Part shown: piece after piece, positions 24,781 through 33,896 of the stretch
How the letters are laid out: each line of letters begins with the position of its first letter
Numbering within the stretch: position 1 is the stretch's first letter
Assembly (NCBI GenBank): GCA_028292195.1
Contig: JAQGMU010000518.1
Span: forward strand, 1-33,896
Source of the DNA: Ramlibacter sp.
Lineage (GTDB): Bacteria > Pseudomonadota > Gammaproteobacteria > Burkholderiales > Burkholderiaceae_C
Length of the DNA: 33,896 nt
Reading direction: 5' to 3'
The notes under the pieces: model-generated
Seen by the model: only the letters and a program-made list of their open reading frames with translations
What the model was told of the DNA's origin: nothing
Databases searched by the model: none
Position numbers and translations under genes: made by a program

Positions 24781-25497
24781 CTAGAACAGACCTGTTTGCT
24801 CAGGAGGCGGTGGGGGTCGCGAGGTTCGCACACTGCTTGACGGCGGCGCCCGCGGCGGCAAAGGCGCCGGCTCGCCGTCCAAAGCACCCTCGTACAGCTG
24901 GAAGAAGTTCGGCGCCGCGGTGACGTCGCAGGCTAGCCAGGCGTCGTACTCGGACTCGTCCAGGATGACCGGCATGCGCTTCTCTTCGCCCGGCTTGTGG
25001 AACCGGCTGTAGAAGGGATGGCTGTCCGCGTTGACCGTCAGCATGGCGAAGGAGAAGGCCTTGGTGCCGTCCGGCGCGCGCCAGTGACGGTAGATGCCGG
25101 CCACACCCATCGGCACGCGCCCAGGCCTGGTGATGGCCCAGCGCATCGGCCTGCCGCCCTCTGGCGGGTAATACGGCTCGAAGAGGATCTCGGCCGGGAT
25201 GATGCAACGCCAGCCCTTGTTCCACGCCTCCTTGAAGCTGGCCAGCGAATGGACGGTCTCACTGCGTGAGTTGTACGTGCGCCGGCCGTAGGCGACTTCC
25301 TTGGCGAAGCTGGGCAGCAAACCGTAGTGCCCGTGCTCCACTACACGCTTGTTGCCGGACCCGGGCTCGGCAAGCCGAATGAAGGGCGCCAAGCCAGTGG
25401 GCCAGATCTCGGGCGGCAGCTTGGGATCGTCGCGGTAGACACCGAAGAAGTGAAGCAGCCGCTCCTGGGTGCTGACGGAGATGTAGTTGCTGCACAC
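24781..25497 (-). CDS. SRAP-family protein (SOS response-associated peptidase, YedK/HMCES-like)
   Basis: Starts MCSNYIS (catalytic Cys2); 'YGRRTYNSRSETVHSLASFKEAWNKGWRCIIPAEILFEPYY', 'FAMLTVNADSHPFYSRFHKPGEEKRMPVILDESEYDAWL'. C-terminus PPPPPEQTGLF. Confidence 0.92.
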   Translation of the reverse strand: MCSNYISVSTQERLLHFFGVYRDDPKLPPEIWPTGLAPFIRLAEPGSGNKRVVEHGHYGLLPSFAKEVAYGRRTYNSRSETVHSLASFKEAWNKGWRCIIPAEILFEPYYPPEGGRPMRWAITRPGRVPMGVAGIYRHWRAPDGTKAFSFAMLTVNADSHPFYSRFHKPGEEKRMPVILDESEYDAWLACDVTAAPNFFQLYEGALDGEPAPLPPRAPPSSSVRTSRPPPPPEQTGLF

Positions 25498-25633: not shown

Positions 25634-26644
25634 TCACGCAGCTGCTGCACCAGCGTCTTGCTGGCCTCCTGCAGGTGGTTGTTGGCCGCCATCGACTGGC
25701 GCAACTGCTCCAGCATTTGGCTCGGCGTCAGCGGCTGCGGGTCCCGTGGCCTGCTCGGGTCTTGGCTGAGCTGCTTGAGCGGCATTCTGTGCTCCTTGCG
25801 TAGGGAAAATAGACTCTAAAAATTTGCACACATCCATGGTGTGCGGCTTTGTCTTGTATCGGGGCCAGAGGTTTTCTGCGATGAATCGACCGAAAACGCC
25901 TTCCTGCGGGTTCGGGGAGTCTACTCGCTCGAATAGAGTCCTTGCTTCAGCACGGTCGATTACGAAACCGTGATTCGGGTAACTATTGATCAGCTTAGCC
26001 AATGCGCCTGTCTTGAGATTCTTGGACTTCTCTGTCAGCCTAGTGCCGTACTCGTGCGCGATTTGAAGCGCTGCATTCATCTCGCCCAACCTAATCGGGT
26101 CGATTTGTGCGTACATGGGTTCGTAAATGCCCATCACCAGCTTGCTCGCGATCTCGGAGGCAACTTTCGTGCTCAACCCGCTACTCGCGTTGATGTCAAA
26201 GAGGTAGTCGTTGAACGCGGAAAGAGCGTCTGTCTTCAGATAGGTCATCCCGCGCAGAATGTCCAAGCCCGAGCTCTGCTGAAACATCTCGTCTTGCTTC
26301 TGGAATTGCACGTCCAGTGGTCCGAGCTCGCCACGGTCAAACACCACCAGCGTATGGGCACCAATGCCCACCAGAGTGCCCGCGCTCTTGCACTCTGCTG
26401 GGACCGCCATGCGAAAGTTGTCAGCACCGTAATGGTGAAGCAGAGCACGCGCCATCCGATAGCCAGAGTTTGGATTGCCACCCCCTGTGCACAAGATGAG
26501 AAGGACCTTCTTCCTCTGCTTCGCCTTGTTGTCCTCAAGCAGATCGCACAGCGAGTCGTACCCAGCCTTCTCAATTGACCCGCAATACGAGTAGACATCA
26601 GTGTCGTCAGCAGCAAATGCCGCCAAGGCGGCCGGGTAATCCAT
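25634..26644 (-). CDS. ClpP-class serine protease, SDH_sah (serine dehydrogenase proteinase)-like
   Basis: 'CTGGGNPNSGYRMARALLHHY', 'VPAECKSAGTLVGIGAHTLVVFDRGELGPLDVQ' (SxG nucleophile context, GPLDVQ); Pro/Ala/Gln-rich C-terminal tail. Confidence 0.8.
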   Translation of the reverse strand: MDYPAALAAFAADDTDVYSYCGSIEKAGYDSLCDLLEDNKAKQRKKVLLILCTGGGNPNSGYRMARALLHHYGADNFRMAVPAECKSAGTLVGIGAHTLVVFDRGELGPLDVQFQKQDEMFQQSSGLDILRGMTYLKTDALSAFNDYLFDINASSGLSTKVASEIASKLVMGIYEPMYAQIDPIRLGEMNAALQIAHEYGTRLTEKSKNLKTGALAKLINSYPNHGFVIDRAEARTLFERVDSPNPQEGVFGRFIAENLWPRYKTKPHTMDVCKFLESIFPTQGAQNAAQAAQPRPEQATGPAAADAEPNAGAVAPVDGGQQPPAGGQQDAGAAAA

Positions 26645-26748
26645 ACCGAATTATGGTTGAGCCCGCGGGCGATTGGCAACCCGACCAAAGGCTACCCCAA
26701 GGCACACCGCAGGCTGGCGGCGTAAAGGCCGGCCAGCGTTCGAAAGAA

Positions 26749-26768
26749 TACTGTATTCTCGTACAGTG
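26749..26768 (+). promoter_or_regulatory. LexA/SOS box
   Basis: TACTGTATTCTCGTACAGTG; core CTGT-N8-ACAG at 26751-26766. Matches the E. coli-type LexA consensus CTGT-N8-ACAG. Confidence 0.8.
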
Positions 26769-26785
26769 ATTGAGCGAAACCCTGT

Positions 26786-27082
26786 ATGCATAAGCCTTCC
26801 AAGCACCTTTACCTTGTGACCTTGTGCGGCATGCCGGAGGCATTCGGCGAGCGCCGCCGCGAGTTGGAAGCGGCCTTCCGCGCCGGGATCGACTGCCAAT
26901 ACGGCGACCAAGTCCGCGCCGCGGAGGCATTACACATGCTGGTGGACGGCGACCTCAAGGAGCCGAACCTGCCCTGGCCGCGCGCCGTGGCGATGGCGAT
27001 GCAGCAGCTCGCTAGCCGCCTGCCGCCCGGGGCCACCTTCGATTGCGACCTGAACTGGCCAGAGATCTCCAAGCCGGATTAG
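26786..27082 (+). CDS. hypothetical protein (98 aa), first ORF after the SOS box
   Basis: MHKPSKHLYLVTLCGMPEAFGERRRELEAAFRAGIDCQYGDQVRAAEALHMLVDGD...; 17 nt after the extended SOS box. Confidence 0.65.
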   Translation: MHKPSKHLYLVTLCGMPEAFGERRRELEAAFRAGIDCQYGDQVRAAEALHMLVDGDLKEPNLPWPRAVAMAMQQLASRLPPGATFDCDLNWPEISKPD

Positions 27083-27086
27083 GACC

Positions 27087-27482
27087 GTGCTGCTGTTCGT
27101 CTACCGCCTGCGCTACCGAGGTGAGCGCATGGGCCGCATCGCCATGGCGAACGAAGGAATCCCGGGCGACTTGCGCCTGGAGCCCTACGAGAGCGGCAGG
27201 CACGGCAGGCCAGTCAACGTCGCCAAACTCTTCCGCAGTGGCACCCGCGAGGAGCTGATACCGAGCCTCGATCGGGCGCGCATCGTGCGGGTGCGCGAAG
27301 CCTTGCTCGTCGTCGGCATTGAGCAGGTGCCGCGCGGCCGCAAGGGCGTCGAGCAGTTCCGCCAGGCGTGGGTCTGCGCGGTCCAGGAGATCGCGCTGCA
27401 GCGCTGGCCGGAGCTGCGCCAGCTGCCGCGTACTACCTCGTCAACCGGCTTCGACCCGGCCGACGATGACTGCGGGACCTGA
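27087..27482 (+). CDS. hypothetical protein (131 aa), GTG start
   Basis: Follows the 98-aa ORF by 4 nt; 'LVVGIEQVPRGRKGVEQFRQAWVCAV' shares a motif with the next ORF. Confidence 0.65.
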   Translation: MLLFVYRLRYRGERMGRIAMANEGIPGDLRLEPYESGRHGRPVNVAKLFRSGTREELIPSLDRARIVRVREALLVVGIEQVPRGRKGVEQFRQAWVCAVQEIALQRWPELRQLPRTTSSTGFDPADDDCGT

Positions 27483-27484
27483 CT

Positions 27485-27934
27485 TTGCCTATCCCTCCGA
27501 CCTTTGGCCCCGCCACCGGCTGGTACCAGGCCGGCCAAGGCGCCCCCAATTCGGATGCCGATCGCCGCGGGATGCGCGCCGCAGCCATCCCAGCCACAGT
27601 GGTCGTGCTGCGCCGGCTGGGCCAGCGCATCCCGGCCGCCCAGCTGCTGCGCGCCGCGGCGCCGCCGGCCGGCTGGCTGGTGTGCATGGACCGGTACACG
27701 CAGCCAAACTGGCACGCCTGCCTGTTCGCCGACGAGACCATGCTGAAGGAGTTGCTGCCGAAGCTCCTGCACGCCCGACTGGAACGGGAGAACGGCGGCG
27801 TCAGGCTCTTCGGCGGGATCGAGGTCGACGCCCAGGGCCGGCAGGAATACCGACAGGCCTGGCTGTGCACCCCGACGCCGGCGCGGGCTCGCGAGATCCT
27901 GCTGGCCATGGTCGACGAAGGCGGCGCAGCATAG
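27485..27934 (+). CDS. hypothetical protein (149 aa), TTG start
   Basis: Starts 2 nt after the upstream stop; 'LFGGIEVDAQGRQEYRQAWLCTP' parallels the motif in the 131-aa protein. Confidence 0.6.
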   Translation: MPIPPTFGPATGWYQAGQGAPNSDADRRGMRAAAIPATVVVLRRLGQRIPAAQLLRAAAPPAGWLVCMDRYTQPNWHACLFADETMLKELLPKLLHARLERENGGVRLFGGIEVDAQGRQEYRQAWLCTPTPARAREILLAMVDEGGAA

Positions 27935-27972
27935 CCTCACACAGGCTTAGGGCTCTGTCCTATGCTGCGGGC

Positions 27973-28236
27973 ATGCGGACCCTTCATCTGGCCACAGACG
28001 ACTACGAGCACCTGCTGCGCACGCTCTTGGACGCGCAGCACTTCTTCCACGCCTTCGATCAGACCGAGGTTCGGCAGGAGGGCGAAACCTACACCTTCGA
28101 GGCGGCCGGGTTCACGAAGGCGCTCGAGCGGACGCTGGGCATCGTCGGCTGGCGCGCGGGCGACCCGATGCCGCCCGGCCTTCCCTTCGAGCGGCTGTCA
28201 CCGCGCCCGCTGGAACCCGGCAAGCCAGGGCAATGA
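27973..28236 (+). CDS. hypothetical protein (87 aa)
   Basis: MRTLHLATDDYEHLLRTLLDAQHFFHAFDQTEVRQEGETYTFEAAGFTKALERTLGIVGW...; ATGA overlap with the downstream ORF. Confidence 0.6.
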   Translation: MRTLHLATDDYEHLLRTLLDAQHFFHAFDQTEVRQEGETYTFEAAGFTKALERTLGIVGWRAGDPMPPGLPFERLSPRPLEPGKPGQ

Positions 28237-28424
28237 GCCAGGCGCCCTACCGCTGTCTCCAGTGCCAGGACGGCCGCTGGGTGTGCGCCGACCATCCTGC
28301 TGTGGCCTGGGGCGAGGGAAAGGGCTGCAGTTGTGGGGCCGAGGGTGCGCCGTGCCCGGCCTGCAACCCTGAGGGCGAGATGCCACCTGGCTTCGTCACG
28401 CTGGTCACCAACGGGCCTCAGTGA
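28233..28424 (+). CDS. small Cys-rich (zinc-ribbon-like) hypothetical protein (63 aa)
   Basis: YRCLQCQDGRWVCADHPAVAWGEGKGCSCGAEGAPCPACNPEGE: seven Cys including CxxC-type pairs. Confidence 0.65.
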   Translation: MSQAPYRCLQCQDGRWVCADHPAVAWGEGKGCSCGAEGAPCPACNPEGEMPPGFVTLVTNGPQ

Positions 28425-28575
28425 TCGCCATCCCGCGGCCGATGCGCGCCACCGAGGCGGCAAGCCCTTCGCCGATCCCGGCTATATCTACCAGATCAAG
28501 TTCGACGGCTACCGCTGACTGGCGCGCGCCGGCGGGCGGCAAGCCAACGAACTGCGCGCGAAGAGCGGCGGTCAC
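28421..28575 (+). pseudogene. N-terminal remnant of ATP-dependent DNA ligase (LigC/LigD ligase-domain type)
   Basis: 'IAIPRPMRATEAA' (frame of GTG 28421), then a 1-nt shift to 'KPFADPGYIYQIKFDGYR*LARAGG..NELRAKSG'. KFDGYR is the KxDGxR adenylation motif; TGA sits where TGG (W) would be expected. Confidence 0.7.
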
Positions 28576-28754
28576 TTAGAAGGCCTTGCGGTGTCCGGCG
28601 ACTGACCCAACGCTGCTTGCAAACGCCAGAGCCGTAGTTGGAGCGCTTGGTCGTTCCTCTGGGCGACCAAGTGGCGTTCGACAACGAGCGCGTCGGACAT
28701 CGCCTCTTTAATGAAGGAATCCCGGGCGGCTACAGCTTGGCTGTATCGATACAT
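28572..28754 (-). CDS. small hypothetical protein (60 aa)
   Basis: MYRYSQAVAARDSFIKEAMSDALVVERHLVAQRNDQALQLRLWRLQAALGQSPDTARPSK; AAAGG ribosome-binding site 5 nt before the ATG. Confidence 0.4.
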   Translation of the reverse strand: MYRYSQAVAARDSFIKEAMSDALVVERHLVAQRNDQALQLRLWRLQAALGQSPDTARPSK

Positions 28755-29597: not shown

Positions 29598-30161
29598 CTA
29601 AGCAGTGGGGTGCTCCGGCGATGCCGGAGGGACGGGAGGAGTGGTGTCGGTAGCCACCACTTCTTCAGCCAGCTTCTCGAACAACCCCGGCATCGGATTG
29701 ACGGGCGGCGTGCAGATGGTGAGTGGCTTGCCGTCGCGTCGCTTCACGCTGTGGTTCAAGATCAGCAGATTTACCTCGTCGTAAGTGTGAAACTCGTCTA
29801 AGTTGTACAGAACAGCAGTGGCCAAGTGAATCGCGTCCGCGGGCTTCCGTAGCTTGGCGTGCATACGCAGCAAGCGACGAGCCAGCACACCGATGTCGAA
29901 ATCGACTTGCGCCACCACGACGAATTCCTGTTCGATGTACTGCTCGAACTCCAGGTCTTTAGTCTCCGGCAGTTTCAGTGGGTTGCCTCCAACCGTCTTC
30001 TTGAACACTTCGGCCAAAGTGAAGGCGGAGGTCCAGATCTGAAGATTGCCTGTGCGCGCCTGGTCGACTACATAACGGCAGCACTCGGCGCGGCCGGGCT
30101 CGTCCTTGATCAGTGCGATCCAGGCACAAGCATCCCAATAGACCTTCTTTGGATCAGCCAA
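29598..30161 (-). CDS. PIN-domain ribonuclease-like protein
   Basis: 'KVYWDACAWIALIKDE' (first Asp), 'TSAFTLAEVFKK' (Glu), 'LRKPADAIHLATAVLYNLDEFHTYDEV' (Asp cluster). Confidence 0.85.
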   Translation of the reverse strand: MADPKKVYWDACAWIALIKDEPGRAECCRYVVDQARTGNLQIWTSAFTLAEVFKKTVGGNPLKLPETKDLEFEQYIEQEFVVVAQVDFDIGVLARRLLRMHAKLRKPADAIHLATAVLYNLDEFHTYDEVNLLILNHSVKRRDGKPLTICTPPVNPMPGLFEKLAEEVVATDTTPPVPPASPEHPTA

Positions 30162-30996
30162 GGGTTCCTTCCCTCAGCTGCTCCAAGTAATCGATGACGC
30201 TCAGACCTGCAGTAAAGCCTTTGTCGGTGAGCTCGCCTTCAGCGACGTTGCGAGCTTCGACGCGGCGCACGTCCGTGGCAACCACCCGAGACAGCTTGCC
30301 ATCGGCGCCGTAAACAAGAGTGCCGCGCACGACCACGCGACTGCCCTTCCAAACGTCCTCCACGGAGGTGTGCTCGGAGATCTCGTGTTGGAAGGCCTCT
30401 GGCACGATGCACCAAACCTCATTGCCACTCTTGCGCTCCACCAGCTGAATTGCGGGCTGGTTGTAGTGGGTAGCAACCTGAACCAGTGTTCCATCCAGGG
30501 AACCTACCTGCTGCTTGGTTACGTGCGGCGTCGGCTGGTGAACTGCGACGGCAATCGCGGCACGCGCGGCCTCGTCTGGGGTGATGACGATCGGCTTCTC
30601 GGTTTTGACGCCCGCGTCAATGCGCGTGACGCCAATGCCATTGCGATTGCGCGCCAGAACCTTGGAAACGGTCTCGCGGACCTTCGGCGTCGACCACGCT
30701 AGTGGAACGCTGCCTTGTTGTAGTTGGCGCAGGTTGTTGCGGAAGGCGCGCTTTTGTTGCTTTGCAATCTGCTCCACACGAACATCGGGCCGGGCGGCCA
30801 CCGCTTCGGCGGTGACGGTGAACGGGCTATTCATGGTGGCACTCACCAGACGCCAGACGACTTGTTCCCGCGCCTCTGGGTCCGACTCGTTCACCAGCTG
30901 GAACAGATCGAGGACGTGCGCGAACACGTCCTGAACCGTCATGAGGTCAGGGTGTTCTCTGGACGCATCGACGCTGATGATCAGCTTTTGGCTCAC
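30154..30996 (-). CDS. uncharacterised 280-aa protein, translationally coupled to the PIN gene
   Basis: GTG start; 8-nt overlap with the PIN start. C-terminal 'VEDVWKGSRVVVRGTLVYGADGKLSRVVATDVRRVEA' looks like a beta-barrel/OB-like segment. Confidence 0.8.
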   Translation of the reverse strand: MSQKLIISVDASREHPDLMTVQDVFAHVLDLFQLVNESDPEAREQVVWRLVSATMNSPFTVTAEAVAARPDVRVEQIAKQQKRAFRNNLRQLQQGSVPLAWSTPKVRETVSKVLARNRNGIGVTRIDAGVKTEKPIVITPDEAARAAIAVAVHQPTPHVTKQQVGSLDGTLVQVATHYNQPAIQLVERKSGNEVWCIVPEAFQHEISEHTSVEDVWKGSRVVVRGTLVYGADGKLSRVVATDVRRVEARNVAEGELTDKGFTAGLSVIDYLEQLREGTLG

Positions 30997-31280: not shown

Positions 31281-32951
31281 TCACGCGGGCTTTCTCACGT
31301 TCCACACCGCGGGCCGATCTGCTGAAGACGTTTCTGCCGGGATCTGCCCTGAGCATCCTCTCAGTCTCGCAACCAGATCATTGGCCGACTGGAGTCGTAC
31401 CCCCACTGCCACATCCCCCTCTTCGAGCCATGTAGAGTGCTGTCGATATTCTTCATCGGTCAGCAGCACGAAGTCGGCGGCCGTTTTGTTTTCCAACATT
31501 CGCGCGAGAAGAACGTAGTGGCAATCCTTGCAACGGCCCTTGTTCACATACCACCGCACGTGCGCAAGCGGAGAAGTCGCTTGCTTCCAGATCAGGCGCA
31601 CCCAAAGCCTGGTGCAGTCGCCTATCTGGAGAGCGCCCGTTCTGTGCGGAACGTGCTCGCAACGTATGTCGTTCTGACGAAGAAGCCGCAGCAGATCTGC
31701 CGAAAACAAGTTCGTCAGGCAAATGTGCTCCATGCGACACCGACTCCCAGTGTCACGACTGATTGAGTCATCGCGCCCAGCCAAGCGGACTGCCGCCACG
31801 AACGACCCAAACTCCTTTCGGAGTACAGACTCTGACGGGCATTCGTACGCTGTCAGCTCCCACGCCCTCAATGCCGGATTCCGCCGCACTGCAATCCGGA
31901 GCTTTTCGATGATCCCTTCCCTAGAGATACGAGCAGGCTGTTGCGGATGAGCGCGCTTCCATTGAACACGATCCCAGATCTCCCTACTGACCAGAGCCGG
32001 CAGCACCGCTGGTAATCGCTGAAAGGCCGGGTCATCTTCACAACGACGGAGGCCGGTGCGATCATCCCTGCGGCCCCAGACGAAATTACCGATGAACGCC
32101 TCGCAGCTCAGCAAATTTGCAATGGTGTTGACCTTGAAGCGCAGACCTCTGTGAGAGACAGCTCCTAGCGCATTGAGGGCCTTCGTAATTTGCTCCATGG
32201 ACACTTGAGTTGTCGCGTACTGTAGAAACACGCTCTTGGCCAACTCGACTTCATCTGGAGGACCCAGCACCCACCGGATTCTGTCGGTCGGGTAGGACTT
32301 GCGTTCTAGCGGTTCGAGTAGTCGCTTAGTTCGCCCCTCGCTGCTGACGGCCAACCGCCGAAACCCGATGCATGGGAGGGCTCCCATCTGATACCCACGC
32401 GTGAGCGCCCAAGCTTGGCCGGCACGGGTCTTCACGCCCAGCTCGCGGCTGTATTCCGCGGCCATGGCACGCTTCAGGTTTTTAAGCAGCACTGCCATCG
32501 GAGATCTATCCGCCGGAAACGTCTCTCGTACGTAAACAACGTCCACGCCGTTAAGGCGACAGTGGTACTCGTAGTAGGCCGAAGCATCGGTGTCTTCAAA
32601 TCTGCCCCAACGACTGACGTCATACACCAGCACAACGCTGTAGGGGCAACCGGCCGCGGTTACCTCTTGGAGGAGCTGACGCATGGCGGGACGGTACTTG
32701 AGACTTACGCCGCTGCGCCCAGCGTCCTCGTAGGTCGCGGCTACCGTCATTCCGTGCGCCTCGGCGTATTCGCGGATAGCGGCCCTCTGAATCGCTGGCG
32801 ACAGATCCTGAACATCGGTAGACATGCGGATGTACTGGGCTGCTTGGTTCTGGCGCTGGTCCACGAGCTTCTTCCCTTTCACGCTTCGAGCCTTCCCCGC
32901 GGGAAGCACCCTATGCGCGTGCGGCTCACGGGCGGCTCGAATGGCCGTCAC
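31281..32951 (-). CDS. large serine recombinase
   Basis: 'AAQYIRMSTDVQDLSPAIQRAAIREYAEAHGMTVAATYEDAGRSGVSLKYRPAMRQLLQEV' (resolvase catalytic domain), 'VLVYDVSRWGRFEDTDASAYYEY', recombinase domain 'LLSCEAFIGNFVWGR', long C-terminal extension. Start uncertain. Confidence 0.9.
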   Translation of the reverse strand: MTAIRAAREPHAHRVLPAGKARSVKGKKLVDQRQNQAAQYIRMSTDVQDLSPAIQRAAIREYAEAHGMTVAATYEDAGRSGVSLKYRPAMRQLLQEVTAAGCPYSVVLVYDVSRWGRFEDTDASAYYEYHCRLNGVDVVYVRETFPADRSPMAVLLKNLKRAMAAEYSRELGVKTRAGQAWALTRGYQMGALPCIGFRRLAVSSEGRTKRLLEPLERKSYPTDRIRWVLGPPDEVELAKSVFLQYATTQVSMEQITKALNALGAVSHRGLRFKVNTIANLLSCEAFIGNFVWGRRDDRTGLRRCEDDPAFQRLPAVLPALVSREIWDRVQWKRAHPQQPARISREGIIEKLRIAVRRNPALRAWELTAYECPSESVLRKEFGSFVAAVRLAGRDDSISRDTGSRCRMEHICLTNLFSADLLRLLRQNDIRCEHVPHRTGALQIGDCTRLWVRLIWKQATSPLAHVRWYVNKGRCKDCHYVLLARMLENKTAADFVLLTDEEYRQHSTWLEEGDVAVGVRLQSANDLVARLRGCSGQIPAETSSADRPAVWNVRKPA

Positions 32952-33024: not shown

Positions 33025-33896
33025 CTACAAGACCTCCGCTGCAGATCGCAGACGCAACGCCACAAAATCTCCTTCGTCGCTCAGCCACTTAGGAAGCCCC
33101 AGGTACTCGCTCCACGAAAAAAGCAGCAGGTCGGCGGCCGTATCGTCCTCCTCCATTCGGACCAACAAGCCGAAGTGACAGGGCACGTTTCTGCGCGCTA
33201 CAAACCACCATCGCAGTTGGTCGCGCCAGCGGCGGCGACGAACGACGTGGACCCGTACCCGGACTTCGTCGGACAGCAAAAGGACGTGGTGACGGGCGAG
33301 ACGACTGCAATGCGCACCGTCAGCCTGCAACAGTGCGCAGACATCTTCCGTGACTCGTTTGCCGAGCCCATGAACCCTCAGTTGCCCTGCAAGCCGCAGA
33401 CGGTTCGCGGCAGCAGAGTCCTGCCCGGCAAGACGCAGCGCCTGCCGGAATGAGCCAAACGCAGTGACGAAGGCTTTGTACCCCGGACATCCATACGCCT
33501 GTAACTCGAGTAGTCCCAGCGCCGGGTTACGTGCCAAAGCCAAGCGCAGGCGACGCAGAAGTTCCTCGCGAGCCAGCACAAAGCCCGCACAGTGATTACG
33601 CTTGGCCTGCGAGCGTTCCCAAATGTTCTTGTCCACCAGGGGCTGGAACATTCCCTCAGATCGCTTAAAGCCTTCATCGGTCTCTTCCCGACGAAGCGGG
33701 CGCCTTCGCATGGAGTGGTCGTACCGTCCCCACAGGAACCGGCCAATGAACGCCTCGCACCGAAGGAGCGAGGACAGCATTCTCTCGGAGATTGGACGGC
33801 CATTTTCGGCCGCAATGCCCTCCAGAGCCAGCTGCCGCGCGAGGGCTCTGATGATCAATTCTGTAGTCGCATATAGCTCGAAGATACGGCGCACGG
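33025..33896 (-). CDS. second large serine recombinase, C-terminal part only (continues past window end)
   Basis: 'LLRCEAFIGRFLWGRYDHSMRR', 'ARNPALGLLELQAYGCPGYKAFVTAFGSFRQALRLAGQD', 'TAADLLLFSWSEYLGLPKWLSDEGDFVALRLRSAAEVL' parallel the first recombinase. Confidence 0.82.
   Translation of the reverse strand, partial: VRRIFELYATTELIIRALARQLALEGIAAENGRPISERMLSSLLRCEAFIGRFLWGRYDHSMRRRPLRREETDEGFKRSEGMFQPLVDKNIWERSQAKRNHCAGFVLAREELLRRLRLALARNPALGLLELQAYGCPGYKAFVTAFGSFRQALRLAGQDSAAANRLRLAGQLRVHGLGKRVTEDVCALLQADGAHCSRLARHHVLLLSDEVRVRVHVVRRRRWRDQLRWWFVARRNVPCHFGLLVRMEEDDTAADLLLFSWSEYLGLPKWLSDEGDFVALRLRSAAEVL

Follow-up and report, generated by a model that had tools for sequence, protein, structure and literature searches.

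A LexA-boxed operon of small genes in Ramlibacter as a candidate mobile SOS accessory module beside SRAP

Damage-response gene sets outside the model bacteria are known mostly through orthologues of E. coli genes. One protein of interest here is SRAP, which is known to cap single-stranded DNA at abasic sites. SRAP-containing SOS operons were described by Aravind, Anand and Iyer (2013, PMC3765255), and SRAP is named there together with umuDC, imuAB-dnaE2, dinB, Ku and an ATP-dependent ligase. Another system that resembles the present locus is tum of coliphage 186, which belongs to a LexA-controlled operon at the end of the prophage. The DNA analysed here, called the window, is the whole stretch of 33,896 nucleotides and a single contig of a Ramlibacter metagenome-assembled genome that is 82% complete. 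It carries a LexA box followed by a run of small genes, of which the first three are called o1, o2 and o3. We propose that o1-o2-o3 is a LexA-repressed operon that acts as a mobile SOS accessory module beside SRAP, and a probability of about one half is given to this reading. In Burkholderiales, this module would be shared between islands of the chromosome, plasmids, temperate phages and a transposon.

The boxed operon and the island around it

The LexA operator (SOS box, no strand assigned) is located at 26749–26768. Its sequence, TACTGTATTCTCGTACAGTG, has one mismatch to TACTGTATN6ACAGTA on the plus strand. It is the one site on both strands of the window within three mismatches of TACTGTATNNNNNNACAGTA, and shuffled sequences are expected to hold 0.10 such sites. 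Five ORFs follow on the plus strand. The first, o1 (26786–27082, 98 aa), begins with ATG 17 nt past the box. A gap of 4 nt separates it from o2 (27087–27482, 131 aa, GTG start), and 2 nt separate o2 from o3 (27485–27934, 149 aa, TTG start). After a further 38 nt comes o4 (27973–28236, 87 aa), which is overlapped through ATGA by o5 (28233–28424, 63 aa). The original prediction of a LexA box 17 nt ahead of a tight run of small ORFs was reproduced in all its coordinates by an ORF and motif scan. The sigma-70 scan found no plus-strand promoter at the window box, and an Rfam search found no RNA.

Two genes on the minus strand are divergent from the cassette. The nearer one (25634–26644) encodes a ClpP/SDH-like protease and starts 104 nt from the box. 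It matches NCBIfam Clp_like_SDH at 1.8e-6, which is under the curated cut-off, and the phage family phrog_21683 at 1.4e-92. Judged by this arrangement, the box could serve both directions, including the ClpP/SDH-like gene. The second is a YedK/HMCES-like SRAP gene (24781–25497; Pfam SRAP, 2.4e-29). It lies about 1.25 kb from the box, where an SRAP gene on the other strand had been predicted.

The GC content drops from about 70% to about 60% from about 24 kb on, with the exception of the o2-o3 stretch at 69.6%. Two genes for large serine recombinases are found at the window end. One is at 31281–32951 on the minus strand (Pfam Resolvase, 3.3e-23, and Recombinase), and the other is next to it at 33025 (Recombinase, 1.3e-10). 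The two recombinases and the fall in GC suggest that the cassette region is an integrated serine-recombinase island. The island also holds a PIN-domain gene (4.1e-12) that overlaps a 280-aa gene without an assigned function (29598–30996, minus strand), and these two are a possible toxin-antitoxin-like pair.

As a control, the rest of the same genome was scanned for the operator. Exact or one-mismatch boxes stand ahead of lexA, a radical-SAM gene, a tyrosine integrase and a further gene pair. The lexA gene (Pfam LexA_DNA_bind and Peptidase_S24) has two tandem boxes. The gene pair is imuA-imuB in our own reading. The tyrosine integrase (G000:C504, L008, minus strand of 455–1582), with its near-consensus box at the 5' end, looks to us like an integron integrase.

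The o1 and o2 families and their operator

The small proteins had been called unrecognised. The o1 and o2/o3 families match no Pfam or NCBIfam model, and Pfam, NCBIfam and PHROGs searched with each single ORF assigned no function. The third protein, o3, is a paralogue of o2 with an N-terminal extension (blastp between o2 and o3, E 1.6e-5). It matches the o2-family profile (A1), which was itself built from o2, o3 and their first relatives, at 1.5e-25. A relative of o3 in another locus (L038) is 56% identical and has a box at its start. The profile search yielded o2-family members for 57 of the 401 genomes examined in the taxonomic family, and few in the rest of the class. A scan of named genomes with the close o2 set gave matches in two Ramlibacter strains only, and a viral-contig search with L032 as the query gave no match. 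Both Ramlibacter sp. Leaf400 and R. paludis XY19 carry an o2 gene with a box. The weak matches at L025 and L026 and the two weakest of the 401-genome search were left out of the family; the match at L040 is inside a long unrelated ORF. None of 65 members matches Pfam or NCBIfam. On the PHROG side, 25 of the 65 match phrog_5560, a family with no assigned function, the best at 1.9e-10. The AlphaFold2 model of o2 consists of an all-beta domain and one short helix, with a pLDDT of about 95 over residues 1–100. Fold searches of this model against the PDB and BFVD gave no match at E of 0.001 or below, and the best PDB match is the Ran-binding domain of RanBP3 (E 0.067, TM 0.44–0.48).

Members of the o1 family were found in 63 of 301 genomes of the taxonomic family by the o1 profile search. 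The o1 protein is homologous to each half of a 216-aa protein in another genome (G034, L028), and its predicted secondary structure is strand-helix-helix-helix-strand. A comparison of 34 members with Pfam, NCBIfam and PHROG gave no naming family and one chance-level match to SbcC. The PDB fold search with o1 gave no match at E of 0.001 or below, and a PDB profile search with the o1 and o2 families likewise stayed above this E value. In the open-licence literature, no description of either family was found. For o4 and o5, no relatives were found in 98 genomes, and conservation gives no support for the reality of o4 as a gene. One o5-like ORF adjoins a boxed o2 in another locus (L077). The o5 product is cysteine-rich and probably binds zinc, judged by its residues. 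Among the five ORFs, only o1, o2 and o3 appear to be genes of conserved families, as they are backed by relatives.

The homologues were gathered by protein similarity alone, and the box was not used in their selection. A box was counted when at least 12 of 16 consensus positions were matched together with CTG-N10-CAG. Such a box is present within 300 nt upstream of o2 in 38 of 60 non-seed loci, representing 22 of 31 genera. The 300 nt downstream of o2 served as a control and held a box in none of the 60. The background in the same loci is a box at about 0.1% of random positions and at 2 of 467 other ORFs. About 37% of the o2 loci lack a box in the 300 nt upstream, and in some of them o2 is a second operon gene, as in the window. 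For o1, a box was found in 25 of the 30 top loci, or 22 of 27 without the three seeds. Homologues had been named as the test of SOS control, and in chromosomes, plasmids and phages both o1 and o2 keep a LexA box far over background. Therefore, LexA control of the cassette can be inferred with good support. From the position of the box and its conservation, repression by LexA and induction by DNA damage are very likely.

The operator overlaps or abuts the start codon of o2 in 19 of 43 boxed loci (offsets –17, –19, and –20). Examples of a box that touches the start codon are ACAGTATG and ACAGTG. Boxes in this position would place the transcription start at or very near the codon, and the mRNA may thus be leaderless.

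Partners and carriers of the module

SRAP lies within 4.5 kb of 22 of the 71 o2 loci, and the genomes hold just about 0–5 SRAP genes each. The predicted link between SRAP and the cassette is thereby supported. SRAP is mostly on the strand opposite to o2, the window included, and a box of its own is rare. In this orientation, SRAP falls outside the LexA-driven transcript of the cassette. A separate observation concerns a family of 60–76 aa with the pattern WIAACAHHLQLHWRTVDP...AAxxWLxPI. In about ten loci (L074, L076, L084, L086, L087, L091, L115, and L125–L128), it is divergent from or just before o2 and has the box in common with it. No Pfam match above the cut-off was found for this family.

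The families were found on several plasmids. On Pandoraea plasmids, the box of o2 is at –29 nt in all five copies. A Variovorax plasmid carries an annotated SRAP, a box, small genes and o1. On a Polaromonas plasmid, o1 is a neighbour of umuD and of a Y-family polymerase, and a box lies between them. Acidovorax phage Aval (OP131589) is a temperate phage of an orphan genus (PMC11619371). It holds, in the same order as in the window, a box, gp48c (o1), gp47c (o2, with an overlapping start) and gp46c. This operon is at the extreme end of the phage genome, opposite the integrase. The window is without recognisable prophage character, and the LexA-driven operon at a prophage end was seen for phage Aval. 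In IMG/VR, an adjacent box is present at 16 of the 17 o1/o2 loci that have enough upstream DNA. For instance, one viral contig (L209) has SRAP on the opposite strand followed by a box, o1 and o2, and another (L228) has a box, o1, o2 and a gp46c-like gene. Two LexA boxes about 35 bp apart stand ahead of o1-family genes in viral contigs L210, L212–L216, and L219.

Two further observations were made in these loci. First, a small family ending in GDHIRA or GQHIRA accompanies o1, o2 or SRAP in 11 loci, including L205 (897–1088, gp46c of Aval), L207, L111, and L225–L228. Second, an o2 branch beginning with MKVEV (L101, L106, L121, and L124) is found in a run of a LexA-like S24 repressor gene, the o2-family gene, a 240-aa gene and an IS1595/ISXO2-type transposase gene. 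From its gene content, this run looks like a transposon with its own LexA-like control.

The following working is proposed for the module. Judged from the position of the box, LexA would normally be bound there and block transcription. Upon DNA damage, RecA filaments would form and LexA would be cleaved, and the small proteins would then be made. As a guess, o1 and o2 could be non-enzymatic accessory proteins that join SRAP where single-stranded DNA is damaged or forks have stalled. In some copies, they might also act alongside Pol V or a minimal ligase. The site of action and the partners are thus the guessed part of this scheme. The linkage to SRAP, Pol V and ligase favours damage tolerance. 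On the other hand, neither family has a fold or sequence match with a biochemical function, and many copies have no SRAP nearby. In a more ambitious form, considered less likely than not, o1 and o2 would be a pair of SOS effectors so far undescribed, common in Burkholderiales and exchanged among chromosomes, plasmids, phages and transposons. Its operator would lie over the start codon of an mRNA that may be leaderless, and its products would act together with SRAP on single-stranded DNA with abasic sites or other damage.

The carriers themselves point to another explanation, namely that o1 and o2 are SOS-triggered modulators of the elements that hold them. They might be a Tum-like antirepressor that aids prophage exit, or they might dampen RecA and the SOS response in the manner of PsiB/DinI while the element is being transferred. 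The operon is at the end of Aval opposite the integrase, at the ends of viral contigs and on conjugative plasmids, and the MKVEV branch has a LexA-like S24 gene on one side and an IS1595-type transposase gene on the other. All of this favours control of mobile elements, and such a role suits the distribution over phages, plasmids and transposons about as well as repair or tolerance does. However, the same families are found beside SRAP, Pol V and ligase genes, paralogues occur in one operon, and no repressor partner was recognised. This explanation is considered unlikely, and the damage-tolerance reading is ranked ahead of it. It is also conceivable that the small proteins are an SOS-induced growth inhibitor or toxin that slows or kills the cell after damage, like TisB or SulA. 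Their small size and tight LexA control would fit. So would the operator position in about 20 o2 loci, right next to or over the start codon, which suggests that leaky expression does harm. However, no transmembrane or toxin-like sequence was noticed, there is no antitoxin partner, and two or three different families travel together with paralogues. This makes a toxin quite improbable.

The lost ligase and the comparison with known systems

The run ends in the remnant of a minimal ATP-dependent DNA ligase (28421–28580, plus strand), in which the start of the adenylation domain with motif I, KFDGYR, is retained. This end of the cassette had been predicted and was confirmed by tblastn with an intact 213-aa Ramlibacter ligase (L030), whose N-terminus is matched. 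The matching segment, PFADPGYIYQIKFDGYR*LA, is 51% identical over 37 aa (E 3e-6), and a second remnant segment, VIAIPRPMRATE, is found just ahead of it in another frame. The remnant has a frameshift and an in-frame TGA, and nearly everything after motif I is gone. About 50 first residues are left, and a complete adenylation domain is absent from the window ligase. The proposed loss of a terminal ligase is supported by two intact copies. One occupies the equivalent position in Ramlibacter sp. Leaf400, in the order box-o2-106 aa-ligase, and the other follows a box and two 87-aa ORFs in a second Ramlibacter. The locus with box-o2 is L030, and the one with the two 87-aa ORFs is L159.

The small ligase was found in about 15 Ramlibacter loci, including L030 (8485–9126) and L159 (5681–6346), and many copies have stops or frameshifts. 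The intact protein is 213–230 aa long and has an adenylation domain (PF01068, 3.6e-26 in L030), with no OB domain seen. The idea that o2 is the OB domain absent from the ligase was rejected, because o2 has no fold match and most o2 genes have no ligase nearby. Broken copies of the ligase adjoin a boxed o2 (L169) and a boxed gene of o1 type (L174), and in L166 the ligase is next to SRAP. As a general cassette neighbour, the ligase was upheld only in part. Two Ramlibacter loci have it intact behind a LexA box. Most o1/o2 loci, however, have no ligase, and the small Ramlibacter ligases are mostly found outside such cassettes. Judged by these comparisons, the lost ligase is real here, yet a local addition rather than a core member. 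The dead ligase and the orphan o4 and o5 suggest that the window copy of the cassette may itself be decaying. A narrower version of the original prediction is a repair cassette that depends on the ligase, with small proteins that assist it. It is supported by the intact and broken ligases beside boxed genes. In addition, 5 of 17 small ligases have a box no more than 1.5 kb away (one of the boxes weak; 1.4 expected on an elevated background, p 0.015). On the other hand, the great majority of o1/o2 loci are without a ligase, and most small ligases are without a nearby box. This version is very improbable.

In dozens of genera and on mobile elements of several kinds, two protein families that no curated model describes have retained a LexA operator and are found near SRAP. 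Should induction be borne out, the o1 and o2 families would be an overlooked part of the SOS response. They would also offer a handle on SRAP-linked protection of damaged DNA, or on SOS control of mobile elements, in Burkholderiales.

Four known systems can be compared with the locus. First, the intact relative of the remnant has an adenylation domain like that of the Ligase D type ATP-dependent ligases (TIGR02779, PF01068). It differs from them in its length of 213–230 aa and in that no OB domain was seen, and the window copy is dead. Second, phrog_5560 overlaps the o2 family; it has no function or regulation on record, and the o1 family is not covered by it. Third, the SOS-driven operon at the end of the temperate phage Aval is like tum of coliphage 186. 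However, o1 and o2 are also found on plasmids, in a transposon and beside SRAP, and the likeness is one of position and LexA control. Fourth, the passages of PMC3765255 that list operon members name SRAP, ImuB-C, DUF955 and Zn-chelating domains and not the o1 or o2 families. In contrast to the operons given there, SRAP at the present loci is mostly encoded on the other strand, and it is the small genes that have the box. As in those operons, SRAP, Pol V and an ATP-dependent ligase recur here near LexA-controlled genes.
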